Origin: Streptomyces sp. NBC_01471
GTDB lineage: Bacteria; Actinomycetota; Actinomycetes; Streptomycetales; Streptomycetaceae
Length of the DNA: 64,000 bases
NCBI RefSeq assembly: GCF_041438865.1
Contig: NZ_CP109450.1
Span: 2,335,001-2,399,000 of the forward strand
Reading direction: 5' to 3'
The notes under the pieces are model-generated. The model saw only the letters and a list, made by a program, of their open reading frames with translations, searched no databases and was not told where the DNA came from. The position numbers and the translations under genes are program-made. Within the stretch, counting starts at the first letter, position 1, and the number at the start of each line of letters is the position of its first letter. Below are positions 2,267-6,847 of the stretch, piece after piece.

Positions 2267-2806
2267 ATGCAGTGGACCGTCCATGGCGAGCGGCAGATCT
2301 ACAGCAACCCGTGGGTCAACCTGTGGCTCGTGGACGTCCAGCAGCCCGATGGGCGTCGGTGGGAACACCATGTGGTCCGGATGCGGCACCTGGCTGTGGC
2401 GGCCGTCGTCGACGATCAGAAGCGCGTGCTGATGATGTGGCGACACCGGTTCATCACCGACACCTGGGGCTGGGAACTCCCGATGGGCCTCATCGAGGCC
2501 GACGAGACCCCCGAGCAGGCTGCGGCCCGCGAGGTCGAGGAGGAGACCGGCTGGCGGGTGGAGGGCGTCAAACCGCTGGTGTACGCGCAGCCCGCGAACG
2601 GCATCACCGACTCCGAGCACTTCGTCTTCCGCGCGGAGGCCGTCTCGTATGCGGGCCCGCCGACCGAGGTGAACGAGTCCGACCGGATCGAGTGGATCCC
2701 GGTCTCGGAGATCCGGGGCATGATCGACCGCCGCGAGGTCGTCAGCAGTGGCAGCCTGGTCGGCCTGCTGTATCTGCTGCTGGACGAGGCGACCGGCAGC
2801 TCGTAG
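2267..2806 (+). CDS. NUDIX hydrolase, ADP-ribose-pyrophosphatase-like
   Basis: 179 aa with a canonical Nudix box at residues 74-96 (G-x5-E-x7-REVEEETGW) that binds the catalytic metals. The N-terminal strand region (SNPWVNLWLVDVQQPDGRRWEHHVV) and overall size resemble ADP-ribose pyrophosphatase / nucleoside-diphosphate-sugar hydrolases. AAGGGAG lies 8-10 bases before the ATG. It is convergent with the XRE/TPR regulator gene (4 bp between the stops). The substrate cannot be read from the sequence. Two NUDIX genes flank the radical-SAM locus, suggesting a nucleotide or nucleotide-sugar connection, which is inference. Confidence 0.85.
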   Translation: MQWTVHGERQIYSNPWVNLWLVDVQQPDGRRWEHHVVRMRHLAVAAVVDDQKRVLMMWRHRFITDTWGWELPMGLIEADETPEQAAAREVEEETGWRVEGVKPLVYAQPANGITDSEHFVFRAEAVSYAGPPTEVNESDRIEWIPVSEIRGMIDRREVVSSGSLVGLLYLLLDEATGSS

Positions 2807-2809
2807 GGG

Positions 2810-4120
2810 TCAGTCGAGGGTGTCGCGCATGCGTTGCTCGAAGGCGAGGACGGGGGCCTCGCGTGCGTAAGGCAGCATTCGGCGGTGAAGTTCCTGGACG
2901 TGGCCGCTCACTCGTGGCGAGTCGATGGCTGCAGTGAGGTCGAGAGCGAGGCCGGCGCTGGTGCACGCCTCGTCTAGTTTGCCCAGCTGGAGCTGGGTGC
3001 CGGCCAGCCAGTAGGCGTGGAAGGCGCGGCCTCGCTGCTGGTCGGCGTTTTCCCGGCGCAGGCCCTCCGTGATGAGGGGCTCGGCACGGGCTGGTTCACC
3101 AAGGCGCGCGTAGGCGATGCCGGTGTCGACGAGGAGCTTGGTCTCGTCGAAGTAATGGACCCAGGAGGGCGCTTCGACTTCGTTTCCGCGCGAGCGTTCG
3201 TACTCGTCACGGGAGCGGCCAACCGATTGGTGGCAAGCCTGGGCGTCGCGGAGGGTGGCGTGGGCGAATGCTTCGCGCAGATGCAGCATCGACATGACGA
3301 GCGGCTGTTCGCCTGTGGCGCGGGCCGCGTCCTGGGCACGGCAAGCAAGGGTGACGGCGTCGTTCGGGTTGCCGTCGTAGGTGGCCAGCAGGCTCATACA
3401 GGACAGTACGTTGGCCATGAAGAGGCGGTCACCGTGCGCGTGGGCGAGCTTGAGCGCCTGGGTGAAGTAAGTGCGAGCGGTGCTGTACTGGCGGGCGTCG
3501 AAGTAGGCCCAGCCGGAGAGCCGTGCCAGCTCGGCCGCGACCCCTTGAAGGTCGCGCCGTAAGCCACCCTCGGCAGAGTCGAGGAGGCGGCCGACATAGC
3601 GCAGGTGCCCCACGACGGCCGGCCGCAGGGTCGCGCCGCCGTGTGCGTTGTCTCGGCGCCAGTAGTCCTGGACCGAGGAACGCAGGGCAGTGAGGGTGGA
3701 GCGGGTGGCACGTCCGTCGACCAAGGCGAGCAGGTCGTCCAATTCCTCTGCCGGTTCTGTGCACTGAGGATCGTCCTGTACAGCAGCAAGCGACTCGGGC
3801 TGCCTCTCGTCGGTGCGGGCCGGGGCAGGGATCTCCCAGGGTCGGTGGGCCAGGCCGAGCAATGCACCGGGGATGCGCAGGCCGTCGGCGACGCGTTCGA
3901 TCACGTCGATGTGTGCCAAGCCGCGCCGTCCCGCCATGATCTCGCCGACTCGGCTCGGCGTCATGCCGCACAGTGCGGCGATCCGCGACGGGTAGATCCC
4001 GGCCTTGACTTTGACCAGCCTGAAGATACGGGCGAAGTTCCGACCGCGACAGGCTTCCTGCCATTCCGCACTGGCCAGCAGTTCGGTCGGCAGAGCCCGA
4101 TGAGCCTGTGAGCGTGCCAC
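2810..4120 (-). CDS. XRE-family regulator with TPR-like C-terminal domain
   Basis: 436 aa. A Cro/CI-type helix-turn-helix is visible near residues 40-85 (GIYPSRIAALCGMTPSRVGEIMAGRRG). A long alanine-rich helical region follows, of the TPR type common in Streptomyces XRE regulators (for example AYARLGEPARAEPLITEGL, LGKLDEACTSAGLAL). It is transcribed away from the ATPase / radical-SAM operon, and the shared 149-bp gap holds a perfect inverted repeat (4178-4194), its likely operator. TPR domains in such regulators often sense a peptide or partner protein, so the 45-aa peptide of this locus is a candidate ligand; that is inference. Confidence 0.8.
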   Translation of the reverse strand: MARSQAHRALPTELLASAEWQEACRGRNFARIFRLVKVKAGIYPSRIAALCGMTPSRVGEIMAGRRGLAHIDVIERVADGLRIPGALLGLAHRPWEIPAPARTDERQPESLAAVQDDPQCTEPAEELDDLLALVDGRATRSTLTALRSSVQDYWRRDNAHGGATLRPAVVGHLRYVGRLLDSAEGGLRRDLQGVAAELARLSGWAYFDARQYSTARTYFTQALKLAHAHGDRLFMANVLSCMSLLATYDGNPNDAVTLACRAQDAARATGEQPLVMSMLHLREAFAHATLRDAQACHQSVGRSRDEYERSRGNEVEAPSWVHYFDETKLLVDTGIAYARLGEPARAEPLITEGLRRENADQQRGRAFHAYWLAGTQLQLGKLDEACTSAGLALDLTAAIDSPRVSGHVQELHRRMLPYAREAPVLAFEQRMRDTLD

Positions 4121-4177
4121 TCATCCCCCTCACTCGCCCGTCTGGGCGGACTGGCGTGGGACCGACTGCCCATGAGG

Positions 4178-4194
4178 TTACCCACGTTGGGTAA
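4178..4194. promoter_or_regulatory. Perfect 17-bp inverted repeat (probable operator)
   Basis: TTACCCA-CGT-TGGGTAA, with 7-bp arms identical in inverse, lies between the divergent XRE/TPR gene (start 4120) and the ATPase-rSAM operon (start 4270). Position and symmetry fit a dimeric HTH regulator controlling both directions. Confidence 0.65.
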
Positions 4195-4269
4195 TCACCG
4201 TGGCCTGCTTCTGTGATCGCCACTGCGGTGCACTCGTATCCCACAGCCCGCCCGCGACGAGGGGACGCG

Positions 4270-4722
4270 ATGCACGCGATGACGACGCACGACCGACAGG
4301 CCACCCCGTTGCGGTGGCAGATGCAGTTCAGCCCGGTACGCAAGTGCGTTCCCTTGGCCCGCGGCCTCGCCTCCAAGACACTCGCGAGCTGGGGATATGG
4401 CGAGGAGGACATCGACCGGGTGGTCCTCGTCTGCGGAGAGCTCGCCGCCAATGCCGTCGAGCACGGCGGCAGACGAGGGCACCTCTTCGAAGTTCGGCTG
4501 ACTGTTGACGGCCCGCGCTGCCTGGTGGAGGTCTCCGATGCCAGCCGCACCCCGCCCCGCCCAATCAAAGCCGGAGAGGACGACGAAGGCGGCCGGGGCC
4601 TGCTTCTCGTCTATTCGCTCTCCGAGGAGACCGGCCACCACGATCGCCACCCGGTCGGCAAGACCGTCTGGGCCCGCCTGAACCTCGGCAGCCCGAGTGA
4701 GGAGTCCGTATGCACGAGCTGA
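4270..4722 (+). CDS. ATP-binding protein of the RsbW / anti-sigma kinase-like HATPase fold
   Basis: 150 aa from the ATG at 4270, chosen over a start at 4213 because GAGGGGA lies about 5 bases ahead. GHKL features are visible: N-box ELAANAVEHGG, a G1-like VSDASRTPP, and GGRGLLLV. This is the small stand-alone HATPase type that in Streptomyces often accompanies XRE regulators. It overlaps the radical SAM gene by 13 bp, so the two are translationally coupled. Whether it phosphorylates a protein, binds a sigma factor, or supplies energy to peptide modification is not evident. It is the first gene of the apparent RiPP operon. Confidence 0.8.
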   Translation: MHAMTTHDRQATPLRWQMQFSPVRKCVPLARGLASKTLASWGYGEEDIDRVVLVCGELAANAVEHGGRRGHLFEVRLTVDGPRCLVEVSDASRTPPRPIKAGEDDEGGRGLLLVYSLSEETGHHDRHPVGKTVWARLNLGSPSEESVCTS

Positions 4723-5819
4723 TCGCCGCCCCGTACCTCGACCACCACCTCCTCGTACGGCCCGGCAGTCCGAAGGCGGCACGCCTTCCTGCCCACCGGT
4801 ACGAGGAACTGCACACCGCGCCCACCTCAGCAGCGCCCACGTGGCTGGTCGACGTGGCCCGCCGCGCCTGGAAGACCGATCTAAGCGGCCGACGCCTTGG
4901 TGAGACTGTCCTGGCTCGCACCCGCTCCCCCTACGGCTACGGGCGCGCCTCCTATGAACTGAACCTCGGCTGCAACTACGACTGCGAGCACTGCTACCTC
5001 GGCCTGAAGCAATTCGCCGGCCTGGGCTGGCCGGAACGTGAACGCCTGCTTCACGCCATTCGGGACTCCGGGGTGCTCTGGCTCCAGCTCACGGGCGGCG
5101 AGCCGATGATCGACAAGCTGTTCGCCGAGACGTACCGACTGGCGTACGAGCTGGGGATGATGGTCGAGATCCTCACCAATGGCTCGCGCCTTGCCGCGCC
5201 GAAGAACCTCGCTCTGCTGACACGCCTGCGGCCGAACCGGATCACACTCAGCCTGTACGGGGCCACTGCGGAGTCCTACGACGGACTGACCCGGCATCGG
5301 GGCGCGTACCGCATGTTCGTCAGAGGACTGGACGCAGCCCACGAGGCCGGACTGCCCCTCGACCTGGCCTTGATCATCACGCGGCACAACGTCCACGAGG
5401 CCGACCTCATGCGCGCCTTCGCCGACCGCTACCGGCTGCCGTACCGCGAGTACACCCATATGTCGCCGACCATCTACGGCGGTGCGGAAACCCTCGCAAC
5501 CCAGGCCCCAGACCACCTCGCCGACCGCGAGCCCTTCCAGGGCTGCAACGCAGGTCACACATTCTTTCACGTCGATCCACACGGAATGGCTTCCATCTGC
5601 AAGGTCGGCCGCGATGATGCGATCCCCCTCATGACCACGGGAGTCGAAGGACTGAGCCGCCTCGGCGGCGTCGCCGACTCCCTGATGCTTCGTACCGGTG
5701 GCTGCACCGGCTGTCAGCTCTCCGGCACCTGCCGGGTATGCCGACCGCTGGCCAAGGTCTACCAGGAGGCGAAGGCACCACTGGACAGGTACTGCCAGCA
5801 CGCGACAACAAGGAGCTGA
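4710..5819 (+). CDS. Radical SAM enzyme with C-terminal SPASM-like cysteine region
   Basis: 369 aa. The SAM-cluster motif C88-NYD-C92-EH-C95 opens the catalytic barrel, and the glycine-rich LQLTGGEPM follows. The C-terminal third has an auxiliary-cluster pattern: CNAGHTFFHVDPHGMASIC (about 275-295), then C332-x2-C335-x5-C341-x2-C344 and C362, as in SPASM/twitch peptide-modifying enzymes. The N-terminal ~75 residues before the barrel could hold the peptide-recognition element. It overlaps the ATPase gene upstream and lies 3 bp before the 45-aa peptide gene. Together these fit maturation of that peptide. The bond formed (thioether, C-C crosslink or other) cannot be told. Confidence 0.88.
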   Translation: MHELIAAPYLDHHLLVRPGSPKAARLPAHRYEELHTAPTSAAPTWLVDVARRAWKTDLSGRRLGETVLARTRSPYGYGRASYELNLGCNYDCEHCYLGLKQFAGLGWPERERLLHAIRDSGVLWLQLTGGEPMIDKLFAETYRLAYELGMMVEILTNGSRLAAPKNLALLTRLRPNRITLSLYGATAESYDGLTRHRGAYRMFVRGLDAAHEAGLPLDLALIITRHNVHEADLMRAFADRYRLPYREYTHMSPTIYGGAETLATQAPDHLADREPFQGCNAGHTFFHVDPHGMASICKVGRDDAIPLMTTGVEGLSRLGGVADSLMLRTGGCTGCQLSGTCRVCRPLAKVYQEAKAPLDRYCQHATTRS

Positions 5820-5822
5820 ACC

Positions 5823-5960
5823 ATGACCGCCGTAGCAGTCGAAATCGCCCCCATCCGCCCGCCGTCAGAGCCCGATGAGGAGGTCATCCTCATCGAAGAC
5901 GTGGACGCCTTCGCCACAGCCACCGCGTCCGGCTGCGGGGACGACAACCCGTACAACTGA
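5823..5960 (+). CDS. 45-aa putative RiPP precursor peptide
   Basis: A 46-codon frame starts 3 bp after the radical SAM stop. AGGAG lies 7 bases before the ATG, and a strong terminator follows 10 bp after the stop. The first ~32 residues are acidic (PSEPDEEVILIEDVDAF), like a leader; the C-terminus ATASGCGDDNPYN holds the only Cys, two Asp, two Asn and the only Tyr, like a short core. Position, size and composition match radical-SAM-modified peptide precursors. I do not recognise the family. A Cys followed by Asp/Asn could support an alpha- or beta-thioether, and the Tyr could be crosslinked; both are speculation. Confidence 0.72.
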   Translation: MTAVAVEIAPIRPPSEPDEEVILIEDVDAFATATASGCGDDNPYN

Positions 5961-5970
5961 CCAACTAGCC

Positions 5971-6006
5971 AAGGGCTTCCGGCAGCACTTCGTGCCGGAA
6001 GCCCTT
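5971..6006 (+). terminator. Terminator after the peptide gene
   Basis: A 14-bp perfect stem (AAGGGCTTCCGGCA / TGCCGGAAGCCCTT) with an 8-base loop, extended by CCAAC/GTTGG outside a 5-base bulge. It closes the ATPase-rSAM-peptide unit. Confidence 0.8.
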
Positions 6007-6037
6007 GTTGGCACGCAAGTCTGGAAACCTGACGACC

Positions 6038-6847
6038 ATGCCCGCACCCCCCGTCGCCTTCGACGAACTCCCTTCCGGCGCCCGCACCGCCATCGAGGCC
6101 GAGACCGGACCGATCCTCAAGATCGAGAACATCACCACCGGCCTCAACAGCTCCCTCTCCGCACGTGCACACACCATCGGCGGAGCCGTCTTCCTCAAGG
6201 GCCTGCGCACCGACCATCGCTGGGTTTGGACCCAGCAGCGCGAGGCCGACATCAACCCGTACGTCACCCCCCTCGCCCCTGCCCTGCTCTTCCACGTCAT
6301 CGCCGACGGCTGGGACGTCCTCGGCTTTGAGACCATCGACGGCCACCACGCCGATTACTCCCCAGGCTCCCCCGACTTGCCCAAAGTCTCGGACGCACTC
6401 CGGGAACTGGCCTCCCTCCCCTGCCCGGACATCGAACTCCGTCACGCCGAACAACGCCTGGCCAGTTACGTCCCGCACCCCGCCGACGCAGACGTCTTCA
6501 AGGGCAACGCGCTACTCCACACGGACTGGAACAGCCACAACGTCCTCATCGCTGGCCACCGCGCCCACCTCGTCGACTGGGGCTGGGCCACCCGCGGAGC
6601 CGCCTGGCTCGATCCGGCCCACTGGATTATCTGGCTGATCGCGGCAGGTCACACACCAGTCAGCGCGGAAAAGTCGGTCGCGCTCCTGCCCGCCTGGACA
6701 TTGGCACCACCCCGGGCAGTGGACGTCTTCACCCACGCCAGCGCGAACCTCTGGGAAGAGATCGCGGGTTCCGCCCCAGATGATTGGACAACGAACTTGC
6801 TTGACGCCACGCGACTCTGGCAACAGCACCGAAACGATCGCTCCTGA
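6038..6847 (+). CDS. Phosphotransferase-family (aminoglycoside/choline-kinase-like) protein
   Basis: 269 aa with the kinase-like catalytic loop LLHTDWNSHNVLI (His-x-Asp-x4-Asn) and, about 10 residues on, the metal-binding VDWGW in place of the usual DFG/DxD. A lysine in AVFLKGL could be the ATP-binding Lys. The ATG at 6038 lies just after the terminator; the ribosome site (GGAAA) is weak, so the start is moderately uncertain. It could inactivate a small molecule, phosphorylate a peptide or act as a resistance/immunity factor for the upstream product; none can be chosen from sequence. It follows the peptide gene in the same direction. Confidence 0.75.
   Translation: MPAPPVAFDELPSGARTAIEAETGPILKIENITTGLNSSLSARAHTIGGAVFLKGLRTDHRWVWTQQREADINPYVTPLAPALLFHVIADGWDVLGFETIDGHHADYSPGSPDLPKVSDALRELASLPCPDIELRHAEQRLASYVPHPADADVFKGNALLHTDWNSHNVLIAGHRAHLVDWGWATRGAAWLDPAHWIIWLIAAGHTPVSAEKSVALLPAWTLAPPRAVDVFTHASANLWEEIAGSAPDDWTTNLLDATRLWQQHRNDRS

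Follow-up and report, generated by a model that had tools for sequence, protein, structure and literature searches.

A candidate undescribed RiPP cassette of Streptomyces and other actinobacteria, with a radical SAM/SPASM enzyme, a short Cys/Asp peptide and a kinase or GNAT gene, carried also on phages and plasmids

Known radical SAM peptide systems and the window cassette

Among described systems, those nearest to the cassette reported here are the ranthipeptides and sactipeptides (CteB, PapB/freyrasin, SkfB), which likewise combine a radical SAM (rSAM) and SPASM-type maturase with a short, Cys-containing precursor encoded alongside; their RRE domain may have a counterpart in a predicted RRE-like domain of the cassette enzyme. 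Spacing in the freyrasin core is CX3D, as it is in one of the two core types of the cassette (type B, below). The links of freyrasin join Cys to Asp (PMC8326336). The cassette departs from these families in its C-terminal core of 7-11 residues, which has one or two Cys and an NPx ending, and in its third gene, a kinase or GNAT gene without a conserved exporter or protease; its rSAM enzyme lies below the cut-off of every named family among the matches listed, and its linkage is a candidate one. The mycofactocin maturase MftC (TIGR03962), which modifies a short precursor C-terminally, as is proposed here, is the best NCBIfam match over the rSAM core, but its score of 65.6 bits is far from the 265 required; the core is not Val-Tyr, and no mycofactocin partner genes occur among the recurrent neighbours of the cassette. 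A parallel for the third gene is ComG, also an APH-fold kinase whose gene adjoins those for a peptide product, and which inactivates the antibiotic peptide corramycin by phosphorylating it (PMC10996006); corramycin, however, comes from an NRPS/PKS, whereas the cassette peptide is ribosomal and its putative kinase tracks a Tyr. Anti-phage lanthipeptides acting inside the cell have been reported in Streptomyces (review PMC12360287), and these too are ribosomal, modified peptides of actinomycetes, although they are made by lanthionine enzymes, whereas the cassette has a radical SAM enzyme and an anti-phage role that is hypothetical. No description of the core motif, or of RiPPs that combine rSAM with a kinase, was found in open-access full text.

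The window is a 64,000-nucleotide stretch of the 8.49 Mb genome of Streptomyces sp. NBC_01471 (NZ_CP109450.1, positions 2,335,001 to 2,399,000). A first-pass annotation had picked out in it three tightly coupled ORFs, encoding a HATPase, an rSAM enzyme and a 45-aa peptide and closed by a terminator, and had proposed an undescribed RiPP locus with the HATPase as a defining gene. The three ORFs are present as claimed, overlapping or 3 nt apart and preceded by plausible ribosome-binding sites (Table 1), and the proposal of an rSAM/SPASM RiPP locus with a conserved peptide stands. The HATPase does not stand as a defining gene, and the unit, rather than closing at the peptide, should run on to 6847 so that the kinase is included. 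Similarly, the supposed terminator is indeed a strong hairpin, but it lacks a T-run and, sitting between peptide and kinase, does not close the unit. The block from ~2.1 to 7.0 kb of the window matches relatives, while the flanks differ.

Table 1. Features of the cassette and its neighbours, in window positions.
Feature	Position	Strand	Evidence
Nudix gene, not core	2267-2806		found without the cassette in G043
Divergent NsdA-family HTH/TPR regulator, linked not core	2810..4120	-	NF053720 E 5.1e-95, above cut-off
Stand-alone HATPase_c_2 protein, probable regulator, linked not core	4270..4722 (or GTG start 4213)	+	PF13581 E 4.8e-17; same type at -1 or -2 in 22 of 80 loci
rSAM/SPASM peptide maturase, 369 aa	4710..5819	+	PF04055 E 3.6e-15; invariant Cys; AlphaFold model
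Precursor peptide, 45 aa, core GCGDDNPYN	5823..5960	+	kept 3' of rSAM in every homologue examined
Strong hairpin, no T-run	5965..6011	+	MFE -34.1, 60 nt after peptide stop
APH-type kinase, 269 aa, proposed Tyr-capping	6038..6847	+	after peptide in most homologous loci; catalytic residues; AlphaFold

A HATPase-type gene occurs at offset -1 or -2 in 22 of 80 loci, and this minority presence, together with its membership of a recurrent divergent NsdA/HATPase regulatory pair, rules it out as a biosynthetic core gene. The window genome has about 59 HATPase_c_2-type genes and about 19 NsdA-type regulators above cut-off, with several divergent NsdA/HATPase pairs; near cassettes both are commoner than genome density suggests, yet variable, and such variable regulators would probably set transcription. 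The Nudix gene was rejected as a cassette part because a Nudix gene paired with an NsdA-type regulator is found as well (L258) in a genome that has neither the cassette nor the rSAM gene. An integrase fragment at 1187-1978 (263 aa, its N-terminal part short) was rejected as part of the unit because two relatives (L054 and L056) have no such stretch between matching blocks, which gives it the look of an independent insertion.

The 60 nt after the peptide stop have a mean MFE of -33.7 against -19.7 in a control stretch, and fall below -25 in 90% of 156 loci against 11% of rSAM-internal control stretches, although these controls are coding DNA and intergenic context may explain part of the difference. 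The hairpin is a probable attenuator or 3' mRNA stabiliser, and would separate peptide output from kinase output.

The maturase and its precursor peptide

The window enzyme combines an rSAM fold with the CX3CX2C motif (C88/C92/C95) and a seven-Cys auxiliary pattern (C279, C297, C332, C335, C341, C344 and C362), spaced C279-x12-G-x4-C297, C332-x2-C335-x5-C341-x2-C344, C362. The canonical SPASM pattern has CX3C where this enzyme has CX2C, its one deviation. Nine of these ten Cys are invariant in 47 homologues, and C332 is kept in at least 90% of them; the motif and auxiliary cluster called in the first pass are confirmed. No SPASM model of Pfam or NCBIfam matched the C-terminal part. SkfB, BlsE, SuiB and CteB head the PDB fold matches of the AlphaFold model (pLDDT 85.6, weak at residues 252-264 and 328-330 and in the 60s-70s across the SPASM region); of these, SkfB, SuiB and CteB are RiPP maturases. 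The N-terminal domain (~residues 1-60) is confidently modelled as strand-strand-strand-helix-helix (strands 4-9, 12-16 and 23-26; helices 28-36 and 44-54), an arrangement that suggests a predicted RRE-like domain; Pfam and NCBIfam gave no match to this part. The enzyme reached no NCBIfam cut-off among the best 25 matches listed, and it is claimed by no named family with a known non-peptide substrate, membership of which had been put forward as contrary to a RiPP reading.

The window peptide (MTAVAVEIAPIRPPSEPDEEVILIEDVDAFATATASGCGDDNPYN) has an acidic leader with an EhhhhDDhD-like motif, followed by the core GCGDDNPYN. Far beyond chance expectation, the rSAM gene is immediately followed by a peptide ORF with this C-terminal motif in 30 of 30 Streptomyces loci and 80 of 80 named loci, and all 195 distinct rSAM homologues with readable downstream DNA, from many actinobacterial genera, are directly followed by a short acidic peptide (about 38-81 aa). 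Conservation of the peptide beside homologues of the enzyme had been set as the proposal's own test, and it held across the 195 distinct enzymes; in all homologues examined an encoded precursor, with a leader and a conserved C-terminal core, adjoins the putative modifying enzyme, as in RiPP loci generally.

The cores are of two types: type A, C[GNS][DNE]DNPY with usually one residue after the Tyr, and type B, C-x-C-x3-D-[DNS]-[NQ]-P-[YHFN], with rare exceptions. The acidic leader and DDNPY motif described earlier are upheld, while the single Cys applies to only one of the two precursor subtypes. Cys and Asp(-2) are kept in 58 of 58 type A cores; in type B, with its CX3D spacing, the second Cys is kept in 98 of 98 and Asp(-3) in 95 of 98. 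The peptide of one viral contig has QVY instead of QPY, and three precursors (L160, L166 and L168, around 4110-4300 in these loci) end in CSCAAGDDNPN, with Asn replacing the aromatic residue, a GNAT gene present and no kinase. A conserved protease or exporter that would account for processing and export of the peptide was not found with the cassette.

The third gene and the last core residue

The phosphotransferase, previously regarded as an odd extra, is instead a conserved third component that alternates or combines with a GNAT acetyltransferase: the third gene encodes an APH-like kinase, a GNAT or both in all but two of the 195 cases, and of 80 neighbourhoods that were clustered, 58 have an APH-like protein behind the peptide and 19 have a GNAT there. 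The AlphaFold model of the window kinase (pLDDT 96.6) has APH(2''), LicA and also the corramycin phosphotransferase as its nearest folds. Residues K54, E69, H161, N168 and D180 are invariant among 41 sequences, with D or E at residue 163, and the protein has the fold, catalytic loop and metal-binding Asp of the APH family; PF01636 scores above cut-off for the kinase of another locus (L103), while the window kinase itself is unmatched by it. The best match of the GNAT profile is tabtoxin resistance protein (E 3.9e-4).

Presence of the kinase follows the last conserved core residue. Across the 195 distinct enzymes, 134 Tyr cores go with an APH (7 of them with a GNAT as well) and five Tyr cores do not, four of these having a GNAT; among non-Tyr cores an APH is found in 0 of 56 and a GNAT in 55 of 56. 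Fisher's test gives p 1.6e-43 for kinase against Tyr, a value that ignores relatedness and, as the pattern was spotted before counting, is not a test of a prior hypothesis. When relatedness is considered, the 159-sequence tree yields 5 independent pairs, 5 of 5 concordant in most pairings (p 0.0625). The 195-enzyme set was gathered to strengthen this, and its tree yields 5 pairs on supported branches, mostly 4 concordant and 1 showing no difference (p 0.125), so that the tree sign test stayed above 0.05; no change in the opposite direction occurs on the 195-sequence tree, and among sequences added after the 159-set count the kinase side of the Tyr rule held without exception. The rule is strong in counts, but represents only about 4-6 independent events. 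At L024/L152, where a type A core ends in Phe, no recognisable kinase or GNAT gene lies within about 8 kb downstream. In one small clade the GNAT stays constant while Tyr/Phe and the kinase vary, from which we read that the kinase may require the Tyr and that the GNAT may act elsewhere.

Mobility, proposed function and competing readings

About 60 strong rSAM homologues occur in the 296 same-genus genomes searched, and others are found in further families and orders, the named genera including Frankia, Amycolatopsis, Actinomadura, Nocardiopsis, Lentzea, Glycomyces and Pseudonocardia. One genome (G375:C1) holds three rSAM copies (L040, L174 and L182), and several others hold two. The cassette is complete on an isolated actinophage, Streptomyces phage Success (L246, 12001-14115), as gp03 (the rSAM enzyme, annotated as an oxidoreductase), gp02 (the peptide, ending GCGDDNPYN, annotated as a hypothetical protein) and gp01 (annotated as a kinase). 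It is present as well on 14 related IMG/VR viral contigs, which may include host sequence and in 4 of which it was seen to lie beside tape-measure, tail-fibre, RecE-like or primase/helicase genes, and on plasmids, both linear ones and the phage-like phiDSM40276. Most copies are chromosomal, many of these not obviously prophage. The cassette moves among chromosomes, linear plasmids and phages.

From the conservation of the genes, the Cys motifs, the predicted folds, the kinase-Tyr association and carriage on phage we infer both chemistry and function, and consider it fairly probable that this is a minimal RiPP cassette in which the rSAM enzyme modifies the core and the third-gene enzyme acts on the product. 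The RRE-like N-domain would bind the acidic leader of the 45-aa peptide, and the SAM cluster, together with the SPASM auxiliary clusters, would then modify the short C-terminal core. The product would most likely be a Cys-to-Asp thioether, a call that we regard as evenly balanced and base on the conservation of the core, where no reactive pair is kept better than Cys and an Asp close by. The APH-type kinase probably phosphorylates the Tyr of NPY cores, to judge from its co-occurrence with that residue, and the GNAT may acetylate another site of the peptide. Through these reactions the third-gene enzyme could cap or neutralise the peptide in the producer. Such self-protection is a reasonable, though unproved, reading because ComG phosphorylates and inactivates corramycin (PMC10996006); we hold it with slightly less than even confidence, the remainder going to obligatory tailoring or some other role.

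A core modification other than a thioether might instead be a carbon-carbon bond, a crosslink that involves the final aromatic residue, or a mycofactocin-like oxidation, perhaps giving a cofactor-like small molecule. Such chemistry would suit a last conserved core residue that is mostly Tyr, Phe or His, short cores, the lack of an exporter, and the sub-threshold match to the mycofactocin maturase, but we think it rather unlikely: Asn at the last position in three loci implies that an aromatic residue is not required, the residue that follows Tyr in most type A cores implies that a C-terminal Tyr is not required either, and the absence of mycofactocin partner genes among the recurrent neighbours speaks against the mycofactocin-like form. 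A cyclophane on the last aromatic residue as the general reaction is weakened by the same Asn-ending cores. Another reading takes the rSAM protein for an antiviral enzyme like viperin that has a kinase associated with it, and regards the small ORF as incidental. PADLOC pVip models ('viperins associated with kinases') do match the rSAM core (E 3.5e-15), and viperins are among the fold matches of the model. This match, however, spans only residues 82-231, the shared rSAM core, while the window enzyme carries in addition a SPASM-type Cys domain and the predicted RRE-like N-domain; with viperin_w_prok of NCBIfam at 41.5 bits against a cut-off of 180, the peptide kept in every locus and a kinase of APH type, a viperin is very improbable.

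The RiPP cassette is, by contrast, compatible with an intracellular anti-phage or superinfection-exclusion peptide that phages and plasmids would carry as an accessory module, and for which the kinase or GNAT would be an off-switch or self-protection. Its presence in full on phage Success, on viral contigs in part beside tail, recombination and replication genes, and on linear and phage-like plasmids points this way, as do the lack of an exporter and the intracellular anti-phage lanthipeptides of Streptomyces (PMC12360287); that most copies are chromosomal and often not obviously prophage, and that PADLOC models match neither kinase, GNAT nor regulators, makes the role doubtful. In its widest form the proposal would be of a widespread undescribed RiPP class on actinophages, plasmids and chromosomes, in which rSAM crosslinks a Cys/Asp core and a core-matched enzyme of antibiotic-resistance type (kinase for Tyr, GNAT otherwise) controls the peptide, which would act intracellularly in phage-phage or phage-host conflict, a speculation that we consider unlikely to hold in full.

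In three plasmid records the rSAM enzyme is annotated just as a 'radical SAM protein', the peptide a 'hypothetical protein' and the third gene an 'aminoglycoside phosphotransferase' (two records) or a 'GNAT family N-acetyltransferase' (one). If the RiPP reading is true, about one in five of the sampled Streptomyces genomes, and many other actinobacteria as well, would carry this RiPP family. The kinase-Tyr rule would connect one residue of the core with an enzyme of tailoring or self-protection in a way that can be tested directly, and finding the cassette on an isolated phage prompts one to ask how a phage might benefit from a modified peptide.
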